Positions 5,105 through 34,279 of a stretch of DNA of 43,295 bases are shown here, one piece after another (within the stretch, counting starts at the first letter, position 1; every line of letters begins with the position of its first letter). The translations under genes were made by a program, and so were the position numbers. The stretch spans positions 1-43,295 of the IMG/VR virus record IMGVR_UViG_3300031999_004042; one strand, written 5' to 3'. This DNA is from a virus. The notes beneath the pieces are model-generated. The model was given only the letters and a program-made list of their open reading frames with translations, ran no database searches and had not been told where the DNA came from.

Positions 5105-5407
5105 TTTAACTTTGAGTTTTTGCCGTTATCCCTTGCCACTCCTGGCGTTCGGCCACTATCCACGCCTCCGAAAGTGCCGCCTGCAAAACCTTAAACTCAA
5201 ACCTGCTTAGATGTATGGTTTATTTATAGATATAACACCACCACCATCTCTGGGCAAACCCTGTATCTTCAATATATTCTATGCAATATATTCTAAGATA
5301 AGGGAAAATAGGCATTCGCTTTATCAGACACATCACTATCGTAGATGTTCACGCTCTGGGATAGGGTTAGAACCTATAATCTTTTGCCCGTAATCCTAAG
5401 ATTACTC
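5105..5407. other. Gap without a confident gene
   Basis: A leftward frame ends at 5106 (TAA). Its last codons read LQAALSEAWIVAERQEWQGI, but the only in-frame start is a poor TTG, so it may be a small gene or a remnant. Two palindromes lie here: a perfect hairpin CCTAAGA-TTAC-TCTTAGG (5397-5414, overlapping the end of the nuclease gene) and ATAGG...CCTAT around 5361-5377. Neither has a T-tract. I see no tRNA that folds. Confidence 0.4.
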
Positions 5408-5896
5408 TTAGGATAGTCTGTTTATTCTGCTCGCTGGCAGAGGCGCGGTGGAGGACGCCGGGAACACCTGTTTTTCATTTATATTATGACGCTCATCTTC
5501 CAAGACCAGCGTCAGAGAACCCAATGTGTATTTACCTTTTTGTTGAAATTTTAAAGCATGAATAATTTTATATAATTTTTCGTGAGTTATTTTTATAGCT
5601 TCTTGGTTGGTTAATCTTAAAAGCCTGAATCCTCTTTTATTAATAAGCCAATTCTCCCTTTGGATTTCATAATCGGAAGTTTTTGGTTTTCCGTCAATTT
5701 CAATTACCATTTTGCGTGGAATAAAAAAGTCAACCACAATACAAAATGTTTCTCCGAAAAATCCTCTTTGGAAAAAATTTCTTATTTTAGCTTGGTTTAG
5801 TTTATCTTTAAAGATAAGTTCAGACATAGTAGCCTTTTCTCTAAGCTGTTCTTTTCTTATTCTTACATGACGCTGGTATTCTTTTTTACCTTTCAT
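5408..5896 (-). CDS. DUF559/Vsr-like endonuclease
   Basis: The 162-residue protein matches the DUF559 branch of PD-(D/E)XK nucleases: an early 'SELIFKDKLNQAKI' helix, D56 in 'VVDFFIP', the catalytic pair E66-x-D68 in 'VIEIDGKP', and the closing strand 'GFRLLRLTNQEAI'. DUF559 proteins are related to Vsr mismatch endonucleases and often behave as free-standing mobile or homing-type genes in phages. It is the first gene of the leftward transcript from the promoter near 6080. Its SD (AAGGAGCG) is buried in a predicted hairpin, so expression is probably controlled. The last 40 residues (after residue 115) are low in recognisable motifs. Confidence 0.75.
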   Translation of the reverse strand: MKGKKEYQRHVRIRKEQLREKATMSELIFKDKLNQAKIRNFFQRGFFGETFCIVVDFFIPRKMVIEIDGKPKTSDYEIQRENWLINKRGFRLLRLTNQEAIKITHEKLYKIIHALKFQQKGKYTLGSLTLVLEDERHNINEKQVFPASSTAPLPASRINRLS

Positions 5897-5903
5897 AAAA
5901 TAA

Positions 5904-5931
5904 CGCTCCTTGAAAGTGTTAAAGGGGAGCG
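5904..5931 (-). promoter_or_regulatory. Hairpin sequestering the SD of the DUF559-like gene
   Basis: On the minus strand CGCTCC (5931-5926) can pair with GGAGCG (5909-5904). The latter contains the SD (AAGGAG) of the gene starting at 5896, so ribosome access would need the hairpin to be open. This is seen directly in the sequence; the regulatory effect is inference. Confidence 0.55.
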
Positions 5932-5945
5932 CATATCCTTAAAAT

Positions 5946-6051
5946 AAAAAATGGCGTGCCGGTAGCACCGATGGTCAGACCGATACAATGGTGGGGTTTA
6001 TTCCGCCGACCGGACACGCCAAATTGTAAGTTATCTTTTATTCTGACCATC
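5946..6051 (-). promoter_or_regulatory. Structured leader A (pseudoknot-type stem plus T-tract)
   Basis: On the RNA (minus strand), GAUGGUCAG (6051-6043) lies at the expected 5' end. An A/U-rich spacer follows, then a 12-bp stem with one bulge (6021-6009 with 5963-5952) and a U6 tract (5951-5946). The loop of that stem contains CUGACCAUC (5978-5970), a perfect 9-base complement of the 5' end. The order arm 1, stem 5', arm 1', stem 3' defines an H-type pseudoknot. Stem plus U-tract looks like an intrinsic terminator, so this is a candidate attenuator. Confidence 0.6.
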
Positions 6052-6052
6052 G

Positions 6053-6085
6053 AGTTTAGCATAAACCTATTTTGGTTTTTGTCAA
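6053..6085 (-). promoter_or_regulatory. Leftward sigma70-like promoter of leader A
   Basis: TTGACA (6085-6080) is a perfect -35. The -10 is either TATGCT (6063-6058, spacing 16) or TAAACT (6058-6053, spacing 21). The block TTGACAAAAAC...TAAACT...GATGGT is shared with the promoter near 7840, which argues that both are phage promoters of the same class. Confidence 0.6.
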
Positions 6086-6183
6086 GATATATTTGTATTA
6101 ACTTTCTTTTTCCTTAAAACAAAAATGCCCCTTGGTTGGTCGTCGCCGGTAAGCAAACAGAGAAACCCATCAATCTTTTTTTC

Positions 6184-6621
6184 TTAAAACGGTTCATCCG
6201 GGCTGTCGGCTTGCGCTTCGTCGCCCAGGATATATTGCGTAACGATGGCTTTAACGAACCTATGATACGAGTTCGCCGGTTCGTGCGTGACCTTGATTTT
6301 CACGGTCTTGTTGATCCAGCGTTCGCTGTTCCACTCGATCTCGCCTTCGTGCGGTTCGCCGATACAGTGAAGGAAATGCTTGGTCCGGCCCATGATCTTC
6401 ATCGCCGGCGACCCTTCATTCGGAATAAGGATATTGTCCCAGACCCAAAGACCTTCGCTGGGGCCGCCCAGTATCCTTAACTTGATCGAAGTCATCGGGT
6501 CTTTGTTTTCTTTAGAATACTGGTCCCGGATCTCCTGGATCATGGCTTGGTGCTCGCCCTCACCGACCAACTCGAAGGTTCCTTGCTCTCTTACGTCTTT
6601 CATGTTTACCCTTCCCTTCAT
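6184..6621 (-). CDS. DUF669-like single-strand DNA binding or recombination accessory protein
   Basis: This 145-residue protein has the pattern of DUF669-type phage proteins: a 'GEGEHQAMI' opening strand, 'TSIKLRILGGPSEGLWVWDNILI', a central 'KIMGRTKHFLHCIG', and 'NKTVKIKV'. It ends with an acidic tail (DEAQADSPDEPF) like the C-termini of single-strand DNA binding proteins. Its start overlaps the stop of the Sak4-like ATPase gene by ATGA, and DUF669 and Sak4-type genes are commonly paired in phage recombination modules. The SD is AAAGGAG. SSB-like function is inferred from neighbourhood and the acidic tail. Confidence 0.7.
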   Translation of the reverse strand: MKGRVNMKDVREQGTFELVGEGEHQAMIQEIRDQYSKENKDPMTSIKLRILGGPSEGLWVWDNILIPNEGSPAMKIMGRTKHFLHCIGEPHEGEIEWNSERWINKTVKIKVTHEPANSYHRFVKAIVTQYILGDEAQADSPDEPF

Positions 6622-7553
6622 TTTGCTCCTTTAGTTTTTACTGCCGGCGCCTTGTCGACGATGGGTTCTCCCTGAACAACGGTTATCTTCTTTACCATAA
6701 AGTCAATGACCTTCTGGACAGTCTCGCCGGTCATCTCGCTCCAATCGTCGCAATCAGCCTTGACTAACCATTTATTGATGGTTTCTTCGTCCACCTTGAC
6801 GACCTCGATGAGCTCCTTGACGCGCTGGACTTGGGCGAGCGTCGCCATAATGACCGGGGTGCTTTCTTTCTCGATGATCTCTTTACCGTAATATTTGCAG
6901 AAGTTATCGTAAGACCAGACGAACTCGGCCGGGAACTTCGCCTGGCCGATCTCGGCGCGTTCCTTTACTGTGATAGCGATACGGTCCTCGCCGCGTTTTT
7001 CGATACGGAAAATAAGGTCGAAGAAATAATCGTCGCCGCGCATACTATCGAACGTCACGCCGGTTTTGGAGAAACCCGGGCCGTAAATGTCTTTCTGGTG
7101 AGCAGTAACGATGACGTTCATATCCAGGGCTAACAATAAACGCTGCAGCCCCTTAAAGTCACCTTTGACTTTACCCCAATAACGCATACCGAAATCCTGC
7201 ACCTCGGCGTCTTTCTCGGACTTAGAATACTTCTCAAACACTTTCGTCCATTTCTCTTGGGTAGCGTTATAGACCTGGGTGATAGGGTCCACGACGAGGG
7301 TGCGGTAGTCGTGTTTGGTGGTGAGCAGCTCGCGGACTTCCTCTTTGATCTCGTCGGGATTGTTCGACTGGAACACCACGGAGCCAGCTTTCGAAATCGC
7401 GTTACTGTAGAAATCGCTGCCCCGTTCGGTATCGATCAAATACGCTTTAGGAAACATACAGACCGCGGTGGTCTTGCCGATACCTGCTTCACCGAAAACG
7501 AAAACCTTTAACCTTTTCTCTTTTTTCTCCGGTGTTTTACCTTTCAACGCCAT
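6618..7553 (-). CDS. Sak4-like RecA-fold ATPase (phage single-strand annealing/recombination)
   Basis: The 311-residue protein has a Walker A motif GEAGIGKT (residues 21-28), a Walker B strand TLVVD (85-89) and a downstream 'VIVTAHQ' (148-153), typical of the AAA_24 group that includes Sak4. These ATPases act in phage recombination and replication, often with an SSB or DUF669 partner, which here follows immediately with an ATGA overlap. The C-terminal 80 residues form an extra domain with a predicted helical 'AQVQRVKELIEVVKVDEETINKWL' part; similar tails occur in relatives. The SD is AGGAGG. Confidence 0.8.
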   Translation of the reverse strand: MALKGKTPEKKEKRLKVFVFGEAGIGKTTAVCMFPKAYLIDTERGSDFYSNAISKAGSVVFQSNNPDEIKEEVRELLTTKHDYRTLVVDPITQVYNATQEKWTKVFEKYSKSEKDAEVQDFGMRYWGKVKGDFKGLQRLLLALDMNVIVTAHQKDIYGPGFSKTGVTFDSMRGDDYFFDLIFRIEKRGEDRIAITVKERAEIGQAKFPAEFVWSYDNFCKYYGKEIIEKESTPVIMATLAQVQRVKELIEVVKVDEETINKWLVKADCDDWSEMTGETVQKVIDFMVKKITVVQGEPIVDKAPAVKTKGAK

Positions 7554-7675
7554 TTTGCCTCCTGTTTTTCTTCTGCCTCTTCTTCTAAAAACTCAACACC
7601 AGACTGCGTTTTTGGGTTATCCCAATCTTCCCATTGTTGCGAGAGCCAACTGTCGTAACCGGAAATTAGTTCCAT
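7544..7675 (-). CDS. Small acidic protein at the head of the recombination operon
   Basis: The 43-residue acidic product (MELISGYDSWLSQQWEDW..., ending EEKQEAKWR) begins with ATG directly after the T7 tract of leader B and overlaps the start of the Sak4-like gene by 10 bases. Short acidic proteins with a 'Y-x-x-W-L' start are common next to such ATPases. No SD lies at the usual distance. The nearest purine-rich stretch (GGG in ACCCGGGC) is part of the leader stem, so translation may depend on leader structure. Confidence 0.55.
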   Translation of the reverse strand: MELISGYDSWLSQQWEDWDNPKTQSGVEFLEEEAEEKQEAKWR

Positions 7676-7804
7676 AAAAAAATGCCCGGGTGCCTGCCGA
7701 CGTGAAGTCGCATTGGTTGAGTGGCAAACAAGAAAGGCCGAACGGCCAATGCAGGCAGAGCCGGGCGTTTTGTCGAATTGATTTTATTATGGTTCCACTC
7801 AACC
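7676..7804 (-). promoter_or_regulatory. Structured leader B (pseudoknot-type, multi-stem, T7 tract)
   Basis: On the RNA, GGUUGAGUGG (7804-7795) sits at the 5' end. A long stem follows: GCCCGG and GCCUGC (7766-7761, 7756-7751) pair with GCAGGC and CCGGGC (7697-7692, 7689-7684), ending in U7. Inside are GCAUUGG/CCAAUGC (7752-7746 with 7716-7710), a GGCC-GUUC-GGCC hairpin (7747-7736) and CGAC/GUCG (7710-7698). CCACUCAACC (7724-7715), in the interior, is a perfect 10-base complement of the 5' end and overlaps CCAAUGC, so the two pairings exclude each other. This has switch-like architecture. Confidence 0.65.
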
Positions 7805-7815
7805 ATCATGGGGAA

Positions 7816-7844
7816 AGTTTACTATGAAAAATTGTTTTTGTCAA
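7816..7844 (-). promoter_or_regulatory. Leftward sigma70-like promoter of the recombination operon
   Basis: The -35 TTGACA (7844-7839) is perfect and is followed by a 17-base spacer and the -10 TAAACT (7821-7816). The expected start, about 7809, places the GGTTGAGTGG arm of leader B at the extreme 5' end of the RNA. Confidence 0.7.
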
Positions 7845-7851
7845 GGTCAAT

Positions 7852-7880
7852 TTGCAAATACTTTGGAGATATGGTAAACT
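7852..7880 (+). promoter_or_regulatory. Rightward promoter candidate for the lone + strand gene
   Basis: TTGCAA (7852-7857), a 17-base spacer and TAAACT (7875-7880) lie just before the gene starting at 7900. It is back to back with the leftward promoter and uses the same -10 hexamer. Confidence 0.5.
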
Positions 7881-7899
7881 ATAGCCGAAGGTGGCAGAC

Positions 7900-8283
7900 A
7901 TGAAGTTTATAAAACCCTCGTTCAAGATTATCGGTGTGATCGCCTTAACGCTTTTATTCGCTTTTGCGCGGGACGTTTATTTTGCCTTAAAGGATGAAAG
8001 GGTCAACCGGGAATATTACGAATGGCTGCCGATCCGTTATGCGACCGGACCTTGCGGCAAAGCCGACAATACCGGCATGATAAAGATCGCCGGCAAGCCC
8101 GCGATTTACATTCATGAACCCGATTATCCTATTTATAAAGGTGGGAAGAACCCCAACGGAGAGTATATCTTTCGTAATGACAACGTAATTGCTGATTATA
8201 CTGCTTGGCAAAATATCCAGTTGGCGGAAATGTCGCAGCGCGGTAACAATACCCAATCCGCGTTCGCCGGCCAGAGACGATAA
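7900..8283 (+). CDS. Membrane-anchored protein of unknown function
   Basis: The 127-residue protein has one N-terminal hydrophobic segment (IIGVIALTLLFAFA, residues 11-24) after a basic start (MKFIKPSFK), then a soluble domain without recognised motifs (IYIHEPDYPIYKGGK). It is probably anchored with the bulk outside the cytoplasm. ATG 7900 is preferred over GTG 7891 because of an SD (GAAGGTGG). It is the only rightward gene between 1 and 39883 and has its own promoter, a moron-like arrangement. It converges tail to tail with the polyvalent protein gene. Confidence 0.6.
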   Translation: MKFIKPSFKIIGVIALTLLFAFARDVYFALKDERVNREYYEWLPIRYATGPCGKADNTGMIKIAGKPAIYIHEPDYPIYKGGKNPNGEYIFRNDNVIADYTAWQNIQLAEMSQRGNNTQSAFAGQRR

Positions 8284-8289
8284 CTCCTT

Positions 8290-11200
8290 TCAATCAAACC
8301 CATAACGATGGAGCTCTCTTCGTATAGATTCACTTAATTGTTCAGATTGTTTTGCGTTGTTTTTTGCGTGCGCTCTGACCAAGTTTTTACGGTATAGGGT
8401 CAACTTTTCATATAACTCGCTAAGATGTTTGCGCCGCTTTTCTTCTTTCCAGGCCAGGGTTTTAGCCGCATACTTTTCGCTTAATTTATCCCACTCATCG
8501 TAGAAATCGCCTATTTGTTTGGCGGGCTTTTCCGGTTGATTGACGAATAATCCCCGCATAAACACAGGGTCTTTCTGGTTCACCCGGTTGAATAACCCGC
8601 CGGAATAAGAGTTGATAAGGTAATCGATCTGCACCGGCGAAAGCGCAAGGCCTAAATGGTTCACTGCCGCTGAAATGACCTTGGCTGCGTCCGTGGTAGT
8701 TTCTCTTACTCTGCTTTGTACCGGCAGCCGGGATAATCCTTCCGCCTCGACGGGGCGGCCCAAATAATCTTTGTTTATGGCGGCTGAAAGTGCCGGTTGC
8801 ACTACCGTGGGTATGAAGCTAGGGAAAAACTGCAAGAAATTATGCTTTAACGCCTCGATCGCCTTGGGATCATCTTCCGAATCAAGCAACGCCTCGATGG
8901 TAGAACCAAAGATCGTTCCCCACAGGAATGGTTTTGGCAGCCTTATTATTCCGTCGGGAATTTCGATGAACCAGTTGGCGTATTTATATTCCCGCGGCAG
9001 GTTTTTATACCACTGTTTATCTTTGTTCTGATACCATAGATACGCCGCTAATAATCCGATGGTCGTAAGCCCCCGGACTGTCGTCCGATAAGGGTGTTCA
9101 CGAAAGTTCTTGACGATCATCCCTAACTCAAGCATATTGGGATTAAAAAAAGCCGCTAACCGGTTTATCTTTTTGCCTGTCTTACCGCCGCCGGAAAAAT
9201 TAAGCGTAACATTTTGAGCGTTATTAAAGGCTTTAACAAACGCGTCATCGTCCGACCAGCCGGGGTGCTCTTTTTTTAGTTGACCATAGGTGCGTTCCAA
9301 TTCTACTATGCGGTACGGTTGTTCAAAAATACTGACGACATCTTGGAAAAATTCCAACGGGTGTTTAACGACGTTAAGGGCCTTTCCCAACGGTAGCTGC
9401 TTAGTCAGGAATTTATCGTAAGTGTCAATACTGCCGGCTCTATCCGACCCGACCCAACCGGACATTTTACCGCCCAGATTAAGATAGCGGTTGACTACGG
9501 AGCCCGGCCGGTTCCACTGGGTTTTTTCGCGCAATAAACCGATCAGCATATCAATACCGGGAAGCGGGAATTTTTGCTGCGATTGTATAGCGTATGTAAA
9601 TGTGTCTCGAGCCGGGTTGCGGGCGAACATAAACTCCGGGCTGAAAGTGATGGCTCCAAGTTTCAAGGTTTGAGTAGCGAACGACAAGGCGTCTAATCCC
9701 AAGGGTAACTGCCAGGTGTCTAATTCCGACAGCGATTGATAAAGTTCTTTGTTGACTTCATAAAATTTACGTTTCCCGTTTTTCCATAGAGGAACGATAT
9801 TATCTTTACCGGTATAATTGTATTGCGGCAGAGCTATATTCACTATCGCGTCTAAGTCCTGCTCGGACAACGCCTCGGCCACGTCTTGGGGTAGATTATC
9901 CAATATCTCCTTGACTTCCGGTAGTTTCTTTAAATCAACGGTTGTTTTCGCCATGCGTATGGGGGCCGGGACTTCCTCGATTATCCGGCCTACCCCCGGA
10001 TTATTTGCCAACTGCGCGAGCCGGTTGACAATGACCATTTTTTGCGCCCGGGTGATCATGTCTCTGGTAGCCGATACGCTGGCTTCGTATGGATTGAGTA
10101 AGGGACGCTGCGAGCCTTTAAACCCCTTGACCATCTTCCCTTGTTTGCTTAAAACATTACCGCCGCCGACCGCCAATTCATCATCGCTGAATATCCGTTT
10201 AAACGCGATGTAAAGCGGATCGACTTTATGGAACAATTCTACCGCCTTCGCGTCTAATCCGCCGGAATCAACCGCCCATTTTAAAAGGTTATTAAAATAT
10301 TCCGTGCCTTCCTGGGCAAATTTTCTGAAAAGCGGATTGTCTAATTTCTCCAAAACATAGGCCGTGTCTTTAGCGTCAAACCCGGTTTGCTGACCCTTTG
10401 TCTGCCTCGTACGAGCGCGGCTTAAAACATAATAAAGGGCGGCGTCCCGGTGTTGCTCTTGGGGTATTTGTCCCCAAACCGCATTGAGAGATTTCCCGGT
10501 CGGACGCCCAACCATATCAATAGTGTTTTTCTCAACAAAGGTATTCGCTATCGCGCCGGCCTTGCCGCGGTAAAATACTGCCAACTCAAAAGGATCTTCC
10601 GAAGGCTTGAGTTTCTTGCCGGATAATCTCTCGACTTCCTCTACAGCCTTGCGCAACCCGTTTAACTCTTCAAACCATTGTTTTTCCGTGACTTCGGCGA
10701 TGTCTTGTATCCTTTCTGCCGCAGTGGGCTGGACGTGATGTTCTTTCTTCCATTCTATTTGAGAAGCGGCGCGGGCCTGGGCGCCCTGGTTTTCCCAAAC
10801 ATAGTACATATCCCGCAATTTATTGAGATTGCTAAATGCTTTGGGATTGTTCTTGGCGAAATAATCAAGAAAGAATTTATTGAAATTAGGCGCTATGGTT
10901 TCGTTATCTCCCACGGTGACATAATGACGAATAAATTCGGCGAACCCTTCGGAGGACCGTCTTTTCTCTTGGTCATAATCGAGATTGCATAGTTCCTTAA
11001 CGGCGACTGACCGCGTTGCTTTAGGGATTTCCTTGGAACGCCAATATTGAGACAGGTCTTTACGCATTAAATGGTCAATGCGGTGCGCGATTTCGTGAGT
11101 GCCGACCTCAACCTCGCCCCAATTCTTCTGGCGAACAAGATCGGTTCTCCGGTTGTAAGTACCAAGGGTCTCCCGATAACGATGAGTAGCTTGGCCGCGG

Positions 11201-25921: not shown

Positions 25922-26826
25922 AAAAATTCCACCTGCTTGGCCTTCTTGGCCGCGAATAACAAACGGTTGATTTCATTACACTTACACGCACACTGGCAAT
26001 CATCGGAAACTTTGACCATGGCCGGCACCCTACTCCAGATCGAAGGGAACGTCTCGATATTTATATCGCCCCAAACATACTTGGGATCACCGGAAAGATA
26101 AAGACACGGCAAAACTTTACCGTGCCAATCTATCGAAGGGCTGAAATGATACCCATAACATTCATCGTAATCCCGGGGTTTTACCGCTTCGATATATTTA
26201 TATTCAGTCAGGTAAACTTTAAAATCCGGAGTCTCGTATTTTTTCAAGAAAACAGGGATTGACATCGCCGGCTGTTTTTTATAATTGCTTTCCAACGCCG
26301 GCCTTATCTGAAAATACGCCGCGCCGAAATCCCTGGTTTGCTCACAAAACATAACCAGCCCGGTATCGGTGTATTTAGAGGTCTGGTTCAAACATATCCC
26401 GAAAGGAACCTGGGGTTTCTTAATGGCCTTAAAGCCTTTTGGGGTCAACGAAATCCTTATCCACTCAAACATATCCTGGAAGGGTATCTCGTTATAACCG
26501 TTGGTAAATAAACCCTGCTTTAGACCTAACGTCTTGGTGTAAGAAACTAACTTATGAAAATCCGGGTGCAAGGCCGGCTCCCCGCCGCCGGTCCAGTTTA
26601 CCGCCTTCAATCCCGAGTTGGCCAACTCCACTAATGTCCTAAGCAATTTATCGGTATCTATGATCTCCCGGGACAATTTGCCTTTAAAGAAACACCAAGG
26701 ACAATCGGCATTACAATATCCGGTCGGCGCTATTTCGATAAGGACCGGCCAAGCCTTGTCGCCTTCCAGCCAATGTTTCACCCTGTCGCCATGCCACAAA
26801 AGTTTCGCTTGCGGATTTAACACCAC
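25918..26826 (-). CDS. Radical SAM enzyme with SPASM-like cysteine tail
   Basis: The 302-residue protein has the 4Fe-4S motif C38-x3-C42-x2-C45 ('CNADCPWC'), the GGEP motif (residues 81-84) and C-terminal cysteines ('DCQCACKC', residues 276-283, plus C in 'VLPCLYLSG'), which fit an auxiliary cluster of the SPASM type. Such enzymes modify peptides or sugars by radical chemistry. It sits between the epimerase and LicD-like genes, so it may act on a sugar donor or a virion protein. GTG is the start, with SD GGGAGGGAA. Confidence 0.7.
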   Translation of the reverse strand: MVLNPQAKLLWHGDRVKHWLEGDKAWPVLIEIAPTGYCNADCPWCFFKGKLSREIIDTDKLLRTLVELANSGLKAVNWTGGGEPALHPDFHKLVSYTKTLGLKQGLFTNGYNEIPFQDMFEWIRISLTPKGFKAIKKPQVPFGICLNQTSKYTDTGLVMFCEQTRDFGAAYFQIRPALESNYKKQPAMSIPVFLKKYETPDFKVYLTEYKYIEAVKPRDYDECYGYHFSPSIDWHGKVLPCLYLSGDPKYVWGDINIETFPSIWSRVPAMVKVSDDCQCACKCNEINRLLFAAKKAKQVEFL

Positions 26827-32975: not shown

Positions 32976-33296
32976 CTAAGCAGTAGCCAACGTGGTCGCC
33001 GCAGTGTAAATACCCACTACGCCGTAATCCACGGTATTGAACACGGTCTTCTGAACGCCGAAGATCGCTCCGCAAGAGATACCCCACTGGTTGCCGTCTT
33101 TAATGTTCACTAAGGTTCGCGACACCTTAGCCGCTTTTTCAGCCGCCCATACTTTCATATGGGAACAGACTATATCATCACCCGTTCTGGGTGCAAGGCG
33201 CTTCGAGCCGCTTGGCTCTACGTCGTTTCCGACTAGTCGTTGAGCTTTGCTGTTGATTTTATTACCATAAATAGAAATCATGGTATTTGTCCTCAT
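32976..33296 (-). CDS. Small head-associated protein candidate
   Basis: The 106-residue protein has a basic N-terminal part ('YGNKINSKAQRLVGNDVEPSGSKR') and a Gly/Thr-rich C-terminus ('VDYGVVGIYTAATTLATA'). It immediately follows the major capsid gene. ATG 33296 has a TAAGG SD, 6 bases upstream; ATG 33281 is an alternative that would shorten it by five residues. Capsid accessory function is likely from position only. Confidence 0.5.
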   Translation of the reverse strand: MRTNTMISIYGNKINSKAQRLVGNDVEPSGSKRLAPRTGDDIVCSHMKVWAAEKAAKVSRTLVNIKDGNQWGISCGAIFGVQKTVFNTVDYGVVGIYTAATTLATA

Positions 33297-33304
33297 CAAC
33301 AACC

Positions 33305-34279
33305 TTAGTTCAGGATTGCCGTCGGCGCTACCGTTACGGTTTTCCCTGAATTCACCTTGTTATTCAATATGTCTTCCGACATAAGGGACCTACGATTTAA
33401 GTCAAATTCCTCTTCAACCCAAGTGGAGTTCTTGCCCCAGGCGATAACGCCGGCTTGCTGACCGCAAAGAACAGCTACCGCGCAGGCTTGCGAGGGCGTA
33501 TAGGTGTAAACGTACTCATGTTCGTGGATGATCAGGCCGTCCCACACGCCGGCCGCGCCGGAGAACAGGGGATTGTCTTCACCACGAGTATTGGCGTCTC
33601 TTTGCGCCTGGGCCCACACAGGGTCCAGTTTCAAGTCAGCCAACTGGTACGGGTGCATGATCACGACGTAATGCGGCTTACCGTTGATTTTCAACGGACG
33701 GATCTTCGGGGAGGCCAACATCGCCATTTGTTTGGCGCGATAGAGCACCTTGGTGTCCATCTTCATCGCGGCCGTTAAATCCGTGTCAGCGGCTACGCCG
33801 CCGGCAAAGACTTTACGGGTAGAAGCGTGAACCGCGGGAGTGTTGGAAAACGTGCTGGAAGCCTTACCGCAAAGTTTGTCCAACAATTCCTGGTCAAGCC
33901 GTTCCGCCCACCAGTCGCCGAGACGTTCTTTAGCGGAAGTCCTCATCTTGTACGCGCTCTGCTTCTCGTCCATACGTCCTTTCAGGCGCACGGCGTGGCG
34001 AAGCTGGTCGATCTCGACCGTCTCTTGGTAATCGGTCATGCTCTCTTCGTTGCCTTCAAGTTCGCTGTCCCCGGTAGTACCCGCGCCGGACAGTTTCATC
34101 CCTAGGCCGAAGGTGACCTTGGAACCCGGGTTGGCCGACAAATCGGTCAATTCGTGTATCATGGAACTTTCGCCGGAACCGATAAATTTCTGCATAAACA
34201 GGTTATCGCGCACATCGGCGAATAAAGTCTTTCTCCATAGTTCGTTCCTTAACGCGCTGTTCGTAACTGTCAAAGCCAT
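33305..34279 (-). CDS. Major capsid protein, N4-gp56 type
   Basis: The 324-residue protein matches the N4-gp56 or DUF4043 (PF13252-like) capsid family by its start ('RNELWRKTLFADVRDNLFMQKFIG'), the central 'VEIDQLRHAVRLKGRMDEKQS', 'LGDWWAERLDQELLDKLCG', 'HYVVIMHPYQLADLKLD' and 'FDLNRRSLMSEDIL'. It follows a scaffold-like gene and a P22-type portal, the canonical head order. It should be the most strongly expressed gene, and terminators follow two genes later. Confidence 0.85.
   Translation of the reverse strand: MALTVTNSALRNELWRKTLFADVRDNLFMQKFIGSGESSMIHELTDLSANPGSKVTFGLGMKLSGAGTTGDSELEGNEESMTDYQETVEIDQLRHAVRLKGRMDEKQSAYKMRTSAKERLGDWWAERLDQELLDKLCGKASSTFSNTPAVHASTRKVFAGGVAADTDLTAAMKMDTKVLYRAKQMAMLASPKIRPLKINGKPHYVVIMHPYQLADLKLDPVWAQAQRDANTRGEDNPLFSGAAGVWDGLIIHEHEYVYTYTPSQACAVAVLCGQQAGVIAWGKNSTWVEEEFDLNRRSLMSEDILNNKVNSGKTVTVAPTAILN

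Follow-up and report, generated by a model that had tools for sequence, protein, structure and literature searches.

The window, i.e. the whole stretch of DNA that was analysed, is a linear virus record of 43.3 kb. Nearly all of its genes are encoded on the minus strand, and genes for terminase, portal and Phage_capsid_3 proteins were identified. In minus-strand order, leader B precedes an ORF of 43 aa and the gene for a Sak4-like ATPase; next comes an SSB-like gene, and after it leader A with a gene for a DUF559 nuclease (Table 1). The 43-aa ORF gave no match to PHROG or Pfam. A divergent gene (7891-8283, plus strand) with a signal-peptide-like start is oriented away from leader B and has a possible promoter of its own (TTGCAA-17-TAAACT). 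Short degenerate repeats form two blocks (ACGCTGGCCC..., GCTGGCCGCGAGCTGGGCG...), at 1230-1480 and 2260-2760, within minus-strand ORFs, which would code for repeat proteins.

Table 1. Leaders A and B and adjacent genes in the window. X and X' as well as S and S' denote pairing segments.
Feature	Position	Strand	Basis or remark
DUF559 (PDDEXK/Vsr-like nuclease) gene, downstream of A	5408-5896	-	Pfam PF04480, E 2.6e-8
Hairpin masking the RBS AAGGAG of the DUF559 gene	5904-5932	-	Fold, -13.2 kcal/mol for a 61-nt piece
A: leader ORF, 43 aa, start codon within X, open across the entire leader	5919-6050	-	Translation inferred
A: U-tract TTTTTTATTTT	5941-5951	-	Read directly
A: S' ACCGGCACGCC	5953-5963	-	
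A: X' TCTGACCATCG, within the stem loop	5969-5979	-	
A: S GGCGTGTCCGGT, 5' arm of the terminator stem (predicted)	6009-6020	-	
A: X CGATGGTCAGA, 5' segment at the predicted transcription start	6042-6052	-	Perfect complement to 5969-5979
A: promoter (predicted) TTGACA-16-TATGCT	6058-6085	-	10/12 consensus matches
Sak4-like recombination ATPase gene, downstream of B	6618-7553	-	phrog_124, E 6.7e-23; AAA_24
43-aa ORF, starts at the end of the B U-tract, overlaps the ATPase start	7544-7675	-	Read from sequence
B: leader ORF, 47 aa, stop overlaps the next ORF start (ATGGAACTAA)	7666-7809	-	Translation inferred
B: U-tract TTTTTTT	7676-7682	-	Read directly
B: S' GCAGGCACCCGGGC, then A	7684-7697	-	Sequence and fold
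B: additional hairpin CGACTTCACGTCG, between X' and S'	7698-7710	-	Fold
B: X' CCACTCAACCA	7714-7724	-	
B: S, two parts, GCCCGG-ctc-TGCCTGC	7751-7766	-	
B: X TGGTTGAGTGG	7795-7805	-	
B: promoter (predicted) TTGACA-17-TAAACT	7816-7844	-	10/12 matches

In leader A (6085-5941, minus strand), a sigma70-like promoter is followed by the segment X and then by a GC stem, S:S', which has the complement X' in its loop and a U-tract behind it. The order on the minus strand of 5946-6085 is TTGACAAAAAC...TATGCTAAACTCGATGGTCAGA...GGCGTGTCCGGT...TCTGACCATCG...ACCGGCACGCC-A-TTTTTTATTTT, with an A/U-rich linker of ~20 nt between X and S. Its leader ORF stops directly 3' of the 5' arm of the RBS-masking hairpin, 25 nt before the DUF559 start codon and so not at the start codon itself. 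Two alternative folds of leader A have nearly equal computed energies, -33.6 kcal/mol with X:X' nested and -32.2 kcal/mol with S forced. In the model this would fit a switch without proving one, and the two pairings may form a simultaneous pseudoknot or exclude each other. Leader B (7844-7676, minus strand) has its parts in the same order, and its loop carries a GGCCGTTCGGCC hairpin between S and X'. The 47-aa frame of leader B stops 7 nt into the 43-aa ORF, which in turn overlaps the ATPase start.

The leader at 5946-6085, initially described by a sequence-only reading, is confirmed as a real feature. As that reading had claimed, A and B have the same architecture, with a pseudoknot-type topology directly after the promoter, and this is more than dinucleotide composition provides: the promoter-anchored pseudoknot score of the real leader was equalled by none of 2000 dinucleotide shuffles for A and by 7 of 2000 for B. 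Among all arrangements of the type X..S..X'..S'-TTTT in the window, A and B have the longest X. The perfect 9-base complement reported for A (GATGGTCAG/CTGACCATC) exists, although it is longer, namely 11 nt (CGATGGTCAGA/TCTGACCATCG), and 11 nt is also the length in B (TGGTTGAGTGG/CCACTCAACCA). The TAAACT block, described as common to both promoters, is the -10 element in B only; in A it lies 21 nt from TTGACA and therefore cannot be the -10 element, which is TATGCT. The block TTGACAAAAAC carries no weight by itself, as 16 of 100 shuffles give as many near matches.

The sequences of the two leaders differ, as had been noted, with unrelated X and S. Sequence similarity is confined to the promoter/upstream block (77% over 31 nt) and GATGGT, and when the leaders were aligned as RNAs, as proposed, MAFFT placed A and B out of register. 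The idea of a paired sequence family, or of a paralogous pair, is not supported, since no homologue of either leader was found and the syntenic site in the relatives retrieved is devoid of it. In detail, a blastn search of A and B against 50,697 phages returned short chance matches but no homologue, and the promoter-block pattern had no match among viral contigs. No relative of the DUF559 protein was found, the ATPase protein was not found in GTDB genomes, and in none of the 14 retrieved relatives does the leader precede the ATPase gene at the syntenic site. For A and B as a homologous RNA family, neither alignability nor a conserved position in relatives was observed. What the comparison supports is an architecture that A and B appear to share as a design, common descent not being demonstrated.

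Rfam had no match up to an E-value of 1 for 5850-7900 of the window, nor, at the gathering threshold, for 13 loci that carry a leader. Elsewhere in the window, the only Rfam match was a group I intron (RF00028, 71 bits) at 33146-33409 on the minus strand, at the end of the capsid gene. Several known elements that look similar were rejected. An HDV-like ribozyme has a comparable P1/P2 order, but its core loops are lacking here, X coincides with the predicted start of transcription, and Rfam gives no match. Lambda tR' proved to be a plain terminator, and a match in Pan5 is at chance level. A type III toxin-antitoxin RNA (ToxI-like) was dismissed as a repeat search of 5300-8400 revealed no tandem array at the leaders, and the downstream genes code for DUF559 and Sak4 ATPase proteins, not for a ToxN/AbiQ-like toxin.

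The search for copies outside the window, as proposed, yielded ~18 further leaders of the same architecture in other phages. The order X-S-X'-S' directly after a promoter also occurs in the related virus records L034+2686, L038-7657 (where X has ~14 bp with one G-U) and L041-10245, and L049 has two copies (-7502, -7094), as does the window. Weaker members are L006+6746, L046+14844 and L015+2190, which have no U-tract at S'. With the exception of the second L049 copy (~50 nt), X starts 4-11 nt after the -10 element in the leaders from related phages; the linker has ~11-28 nt, the second loop ~20-25 nt, and X' is close to S'. When intergenic promoter-like sites (at least 10/12 consensus matches) from the window and the related records were evaluated, the topology was found at p<=0.02 in 10 of 46 cases, with ~1 expected and 2 of 46 among coding-region controls, in a first genome sample which is small and consists of capsid and ATPase relatives. 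Because they overlap coding sequence, L005 and the lysis-gene copy in L002 do not enter the statistics.

Further loci were retrieved with the replication-initiator-like protein that is encoded after L034+2686. The element ends 2-22 nt before a rep-type start codon in L075, L095, L105, L080, L108 and L123. Scores of <= -43 were reached by 7 of 80 rep upstream regions; shuffled sequences gave three matches, none of them below -36. Other genes follow the element in L109, L131, L067, L056/L058, L102 and L090, some of which are HNH-like or nuclease-like as judged from translations inspected only by eye. In L080, L090, L102, L105 and L109, the promoters, as read by eye, have the form TAnnTTTG, a type known from Bacteroidetes. 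A genome-wide scan yielded 5 real and no shuffled matches with scores <= -50; at <= -36 there were 31 real versus 16 shuffled matches, so that weak matches barely exceed the background. The absence of compensatory changes, named at the outset as a refuting condition, is addressed only by a substitute, namely ~20 leaders that each have two long helices with different sequences.

The element occurs sporadically, and numerous homologous rep genes are without a leader, among them close homologue groups. A leader is found between the genes in L095, whereas the genes are side by side in the homologous rep neighbourhood of L089, an arrangement suggestive of a removable cassette. Upstream of position 1501 in L311, at a rep gene from a Chitinophagaceae MAG, we observed a terminator-like leader with a weak 5' clamp and a 32-aa leader ORF, the TAA of which overlaps the rep start.

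A reading of the leader as a purely non-coding regulatory RNA is not supported, because in most leaders, including A and B, a small ORF is open through the structure. In 16 of 20 leaders, an ATG frame near X is open through the whole element, whereas shuffles lead one to expect 2.0 +/- 1.3; the antisense strand, which has the same stems and serves as a control matched for structure, has such a frame in 3 of 20. A stop codon within 12 nt of the next start codon was found for 9 of 20 leaders in a scripted test, or 10 of 20 when the 43-aa ORF of B is counted (shuffle expectation 0.5 +/- 0.7). In the nine leaders the stop is positioned at -7 to +11 nt relative to the next start codon; examples are TAATG in L080 and ATGA in L123 and L006. 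Both the structure and the leader ORFs are statistically supported. It should be kept in mind that a single set of 20 leaders served both to recognise and to test the ORF pattern, that this set had been chosen for structure, and many of its members for their U-tract, but not for ORFs, and that shuffle controls leave out selection on overlapping features. Four leaders (C, E, L075 and L102) are without a through-running ATG frame, and thus the leader ORF is common but not defining. Leader E lacks this ORF and yet is among the strongest folds, so translation cannot explain everything. The leader peptides are unrelated and, by inspection, have no codon runs in common.

We consider the chances to be about even that A and B exemplify a type of attenuator which recurs in phages and in which RNA folding and translation would engage in a race. 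On each nascent transcript, a ribosome that starts on the leader ORF would compete with formation of the clamp X:X' and then of the terminator S:S'. X' would be made ~70-90 nt later, and a ribosome starting before this would cover X and S, so that neither clamp nor terminator could form and RNA polymerase would continue. In this read-through state, stop-start coupling would hand translation over to the downstream gene. If no ribosome arrives early, X:X' would close the 5' end together with the leader start site, and S:S' would stop transcription at the U-tract, which would leave an RNA of ~110-130 nt. The outcome would be low and self-limited expression of replication initiators, homing-type nucleases and a recombination ATPase, which are proteins that a phage presumably should not overproduce.

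A more general proposal is that the leaders represent an RNA class which is defined by topology only, with a clamp at the 5' end, a terminator, and an overlapping, coupled leader ORF, and which occurs in unrelated phages behind promoters of differing types, where the race between folding and translation would keep replication initiators and nucleases low. This is tentative, and we rate its chances as slightly below even. Such a class has no conserved sequence and would therefore escape homology searches; if it exists, phages share a compact attenuator in which only the geometry is kept. It would then explain how replication initiators and mobile nucleases are metered in uncharacterised phages, provide a rule for genome-wide searches (promoter, X, S, X'S', U-tract, coupled ORF) and represent a clean test case for competition between ribosome and RNA folding during transcription. 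No description of this combined design was found in the open-access papers searched.

Several known systems have some of these properties. In ribosome-mediated attenuators of the trp/his type, the leader ORF overlaps the terminator. The phage leaders resemble them in this overlap (16 of 20 leaders) and in the predicted competition between translation and termination, but show no runs of control codons on inspection and have a 5'-end clamp in place of the antiterminator hairpin. In plasmids of the IncI-alpha, IncB and IncL/M groups and in R1, a pseudoknot activates translation and an antisense RNA controls it. The phage leaders differ in that their stem has a U-tract and their clamp is predicted to repress. 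An ORF which stops at the next start codon, as is typical for the IncFII, IncI and IncL/M systems, was found in 9-10 of the 20 leaders when all downstream genes are taken together. The plasmid rep leaders are also alike in coupling an ORF to the replication initiator, in having a pseudoknot and in their sequence-variable specificity (titles cited in PMC10724649).

In isrK-orf45-anrP of Gifsy-1, a prophage promoter drives a leader RNA that extends to an intrinsic terminator with partial read-through, long-range pairing silences translation, and an upstream ORF mediates expression of the next gene (PMC4825925). Promoter, terminated leader, long-range pairing and upstream ORF have counterparts in the phage leaders, where they are predicted. 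However, the isrK ORF is located beyond the terminator and the short RNA is a trans-acting activator (PMC4825925), while in the phage leaders the ORF overlaps the terminator, X is at the 5' end of the transcript, and no trans partner was found. For homing endonucleases of T4-like phages (I-TevI, mobE), RBS hairpins keep nuclease expression low (PMC3014915). Leader A has in common with these that the RBS of a downstream nuclease gene is hidden, but the I-TevI and mobE hairpins are local and come without leader terminator and leader ORF. RydC resembles the leaders in combining a pseudoknot with a terminator-type 3' end (PMC4337610); its 5' end is free as a seed, whereas that of the phage leaders is predicted to be paired. 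Judged by analogy, the logic of the leaders would lie between ribosome-mediated attenuation, the leader-peptide-coupled rep control of plasmids, and isrK-orf45-anrP.

Among the alternatives, the one that survives best is a copy-control or immunity RNA, although we regard it as unlikely. Either the terminated leader would target, in trans, nascent leaders of the same kind, or X would be attacked by an antisense RNA, following the models of P4 CI / P1 c4 immunity, IncI-type rep control or Gifsy-1 IsrK, and the differing X sequences would represent specificity groups. This agrees with a constant architecture in which X and S differ among all leaders, with the replication initiators downstream of many of them, and with the precedent of IsrK, a terminated prophage leader that acts in trans on the read-through mRNA via an upstream ORF (PMC4825925). 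However, perfect pairing of X, in A as in B, is restricted in the window genome to its own X'; a single site with 1 mismatch exists for X of B, at 26461. In addition, A and B have different X in the same genome, P4 does not have such an architecture above background, and no strong antisense promoter was found: the best candidate (9/12; 5910-5939, antisense to A) has a score that is common by chance.

An improbable reading is that the leader is a stable sRNA, locked at its 5' and 3' ends, in which the pseudoknot protects a trans-acting or decoy RNA from decay while the downstream gene is coincidental. A precedent is provided by RydC, which ends with a terminator and requires its pseudoknot for stability (PMC4337610). 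A stand-alone sRNA would need neither S' at its usual position 2-22 nt ahead of a start codon nor leader ORFs that stop there, and no conserved seed sequence is present.

That the leaders are ordinary leaky terminators with chance complementarity, A and B being alike in promoter sequence only, was already disfavoured, and we consider it very improbable. Terminators and chance complements of 8 nt are common, and weaker matches occur in shuffles as well, but the shuffle tests of A and B, the promoter enrichment, the exact placement before rep genes and the ORF coupling all speak against it. HK022 put consists of two stem-loops and is not a pseudoknot. A cis-acting antitermination RNA of this kind, in which a nascent pseudoknot modifies RNA polymerase, would fit the location right after early-type promoters and the absence of a U-tract in L046+14844 and L015+2190, but is the least probable of the alternatives, given that most members themselves end in a U-tract, no sequence is shared, and the topology is different.

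Besides the attenuator design preferred here for A and B, other leaders were observed. Homologous leaders in L023 (896-1083) and L051 (18820-19002) have a conserved loop, AATGTAAAAGT..CATCTACCGGGCC, and a 5' clamp that co-varies (GGGGAC/GTCCCC versus GGGGAAC/GTTCCCC). They were not counted, being only two and of different geometry, and a pattern scan of viral contigs gave no others. Two capsid relatives (L023 + 4765, L029 + 3707) carry a conserved leader, GCTCTTACTGAG.TCCAGAAGAGCGG...CGCTCTT, with mutually exclusive AAGAGC pairings, which may represent an attenuator-like switch. Finally, the leaders at L032 (minus strand, 9726) and L015 + 2190 have TGTTCTTTGA / AGTTCTTTGA right after the promoter, a motif which we take to resemble rRNA boxA, and the L032 leader additionally has a classical antiterminator/terminator pair.
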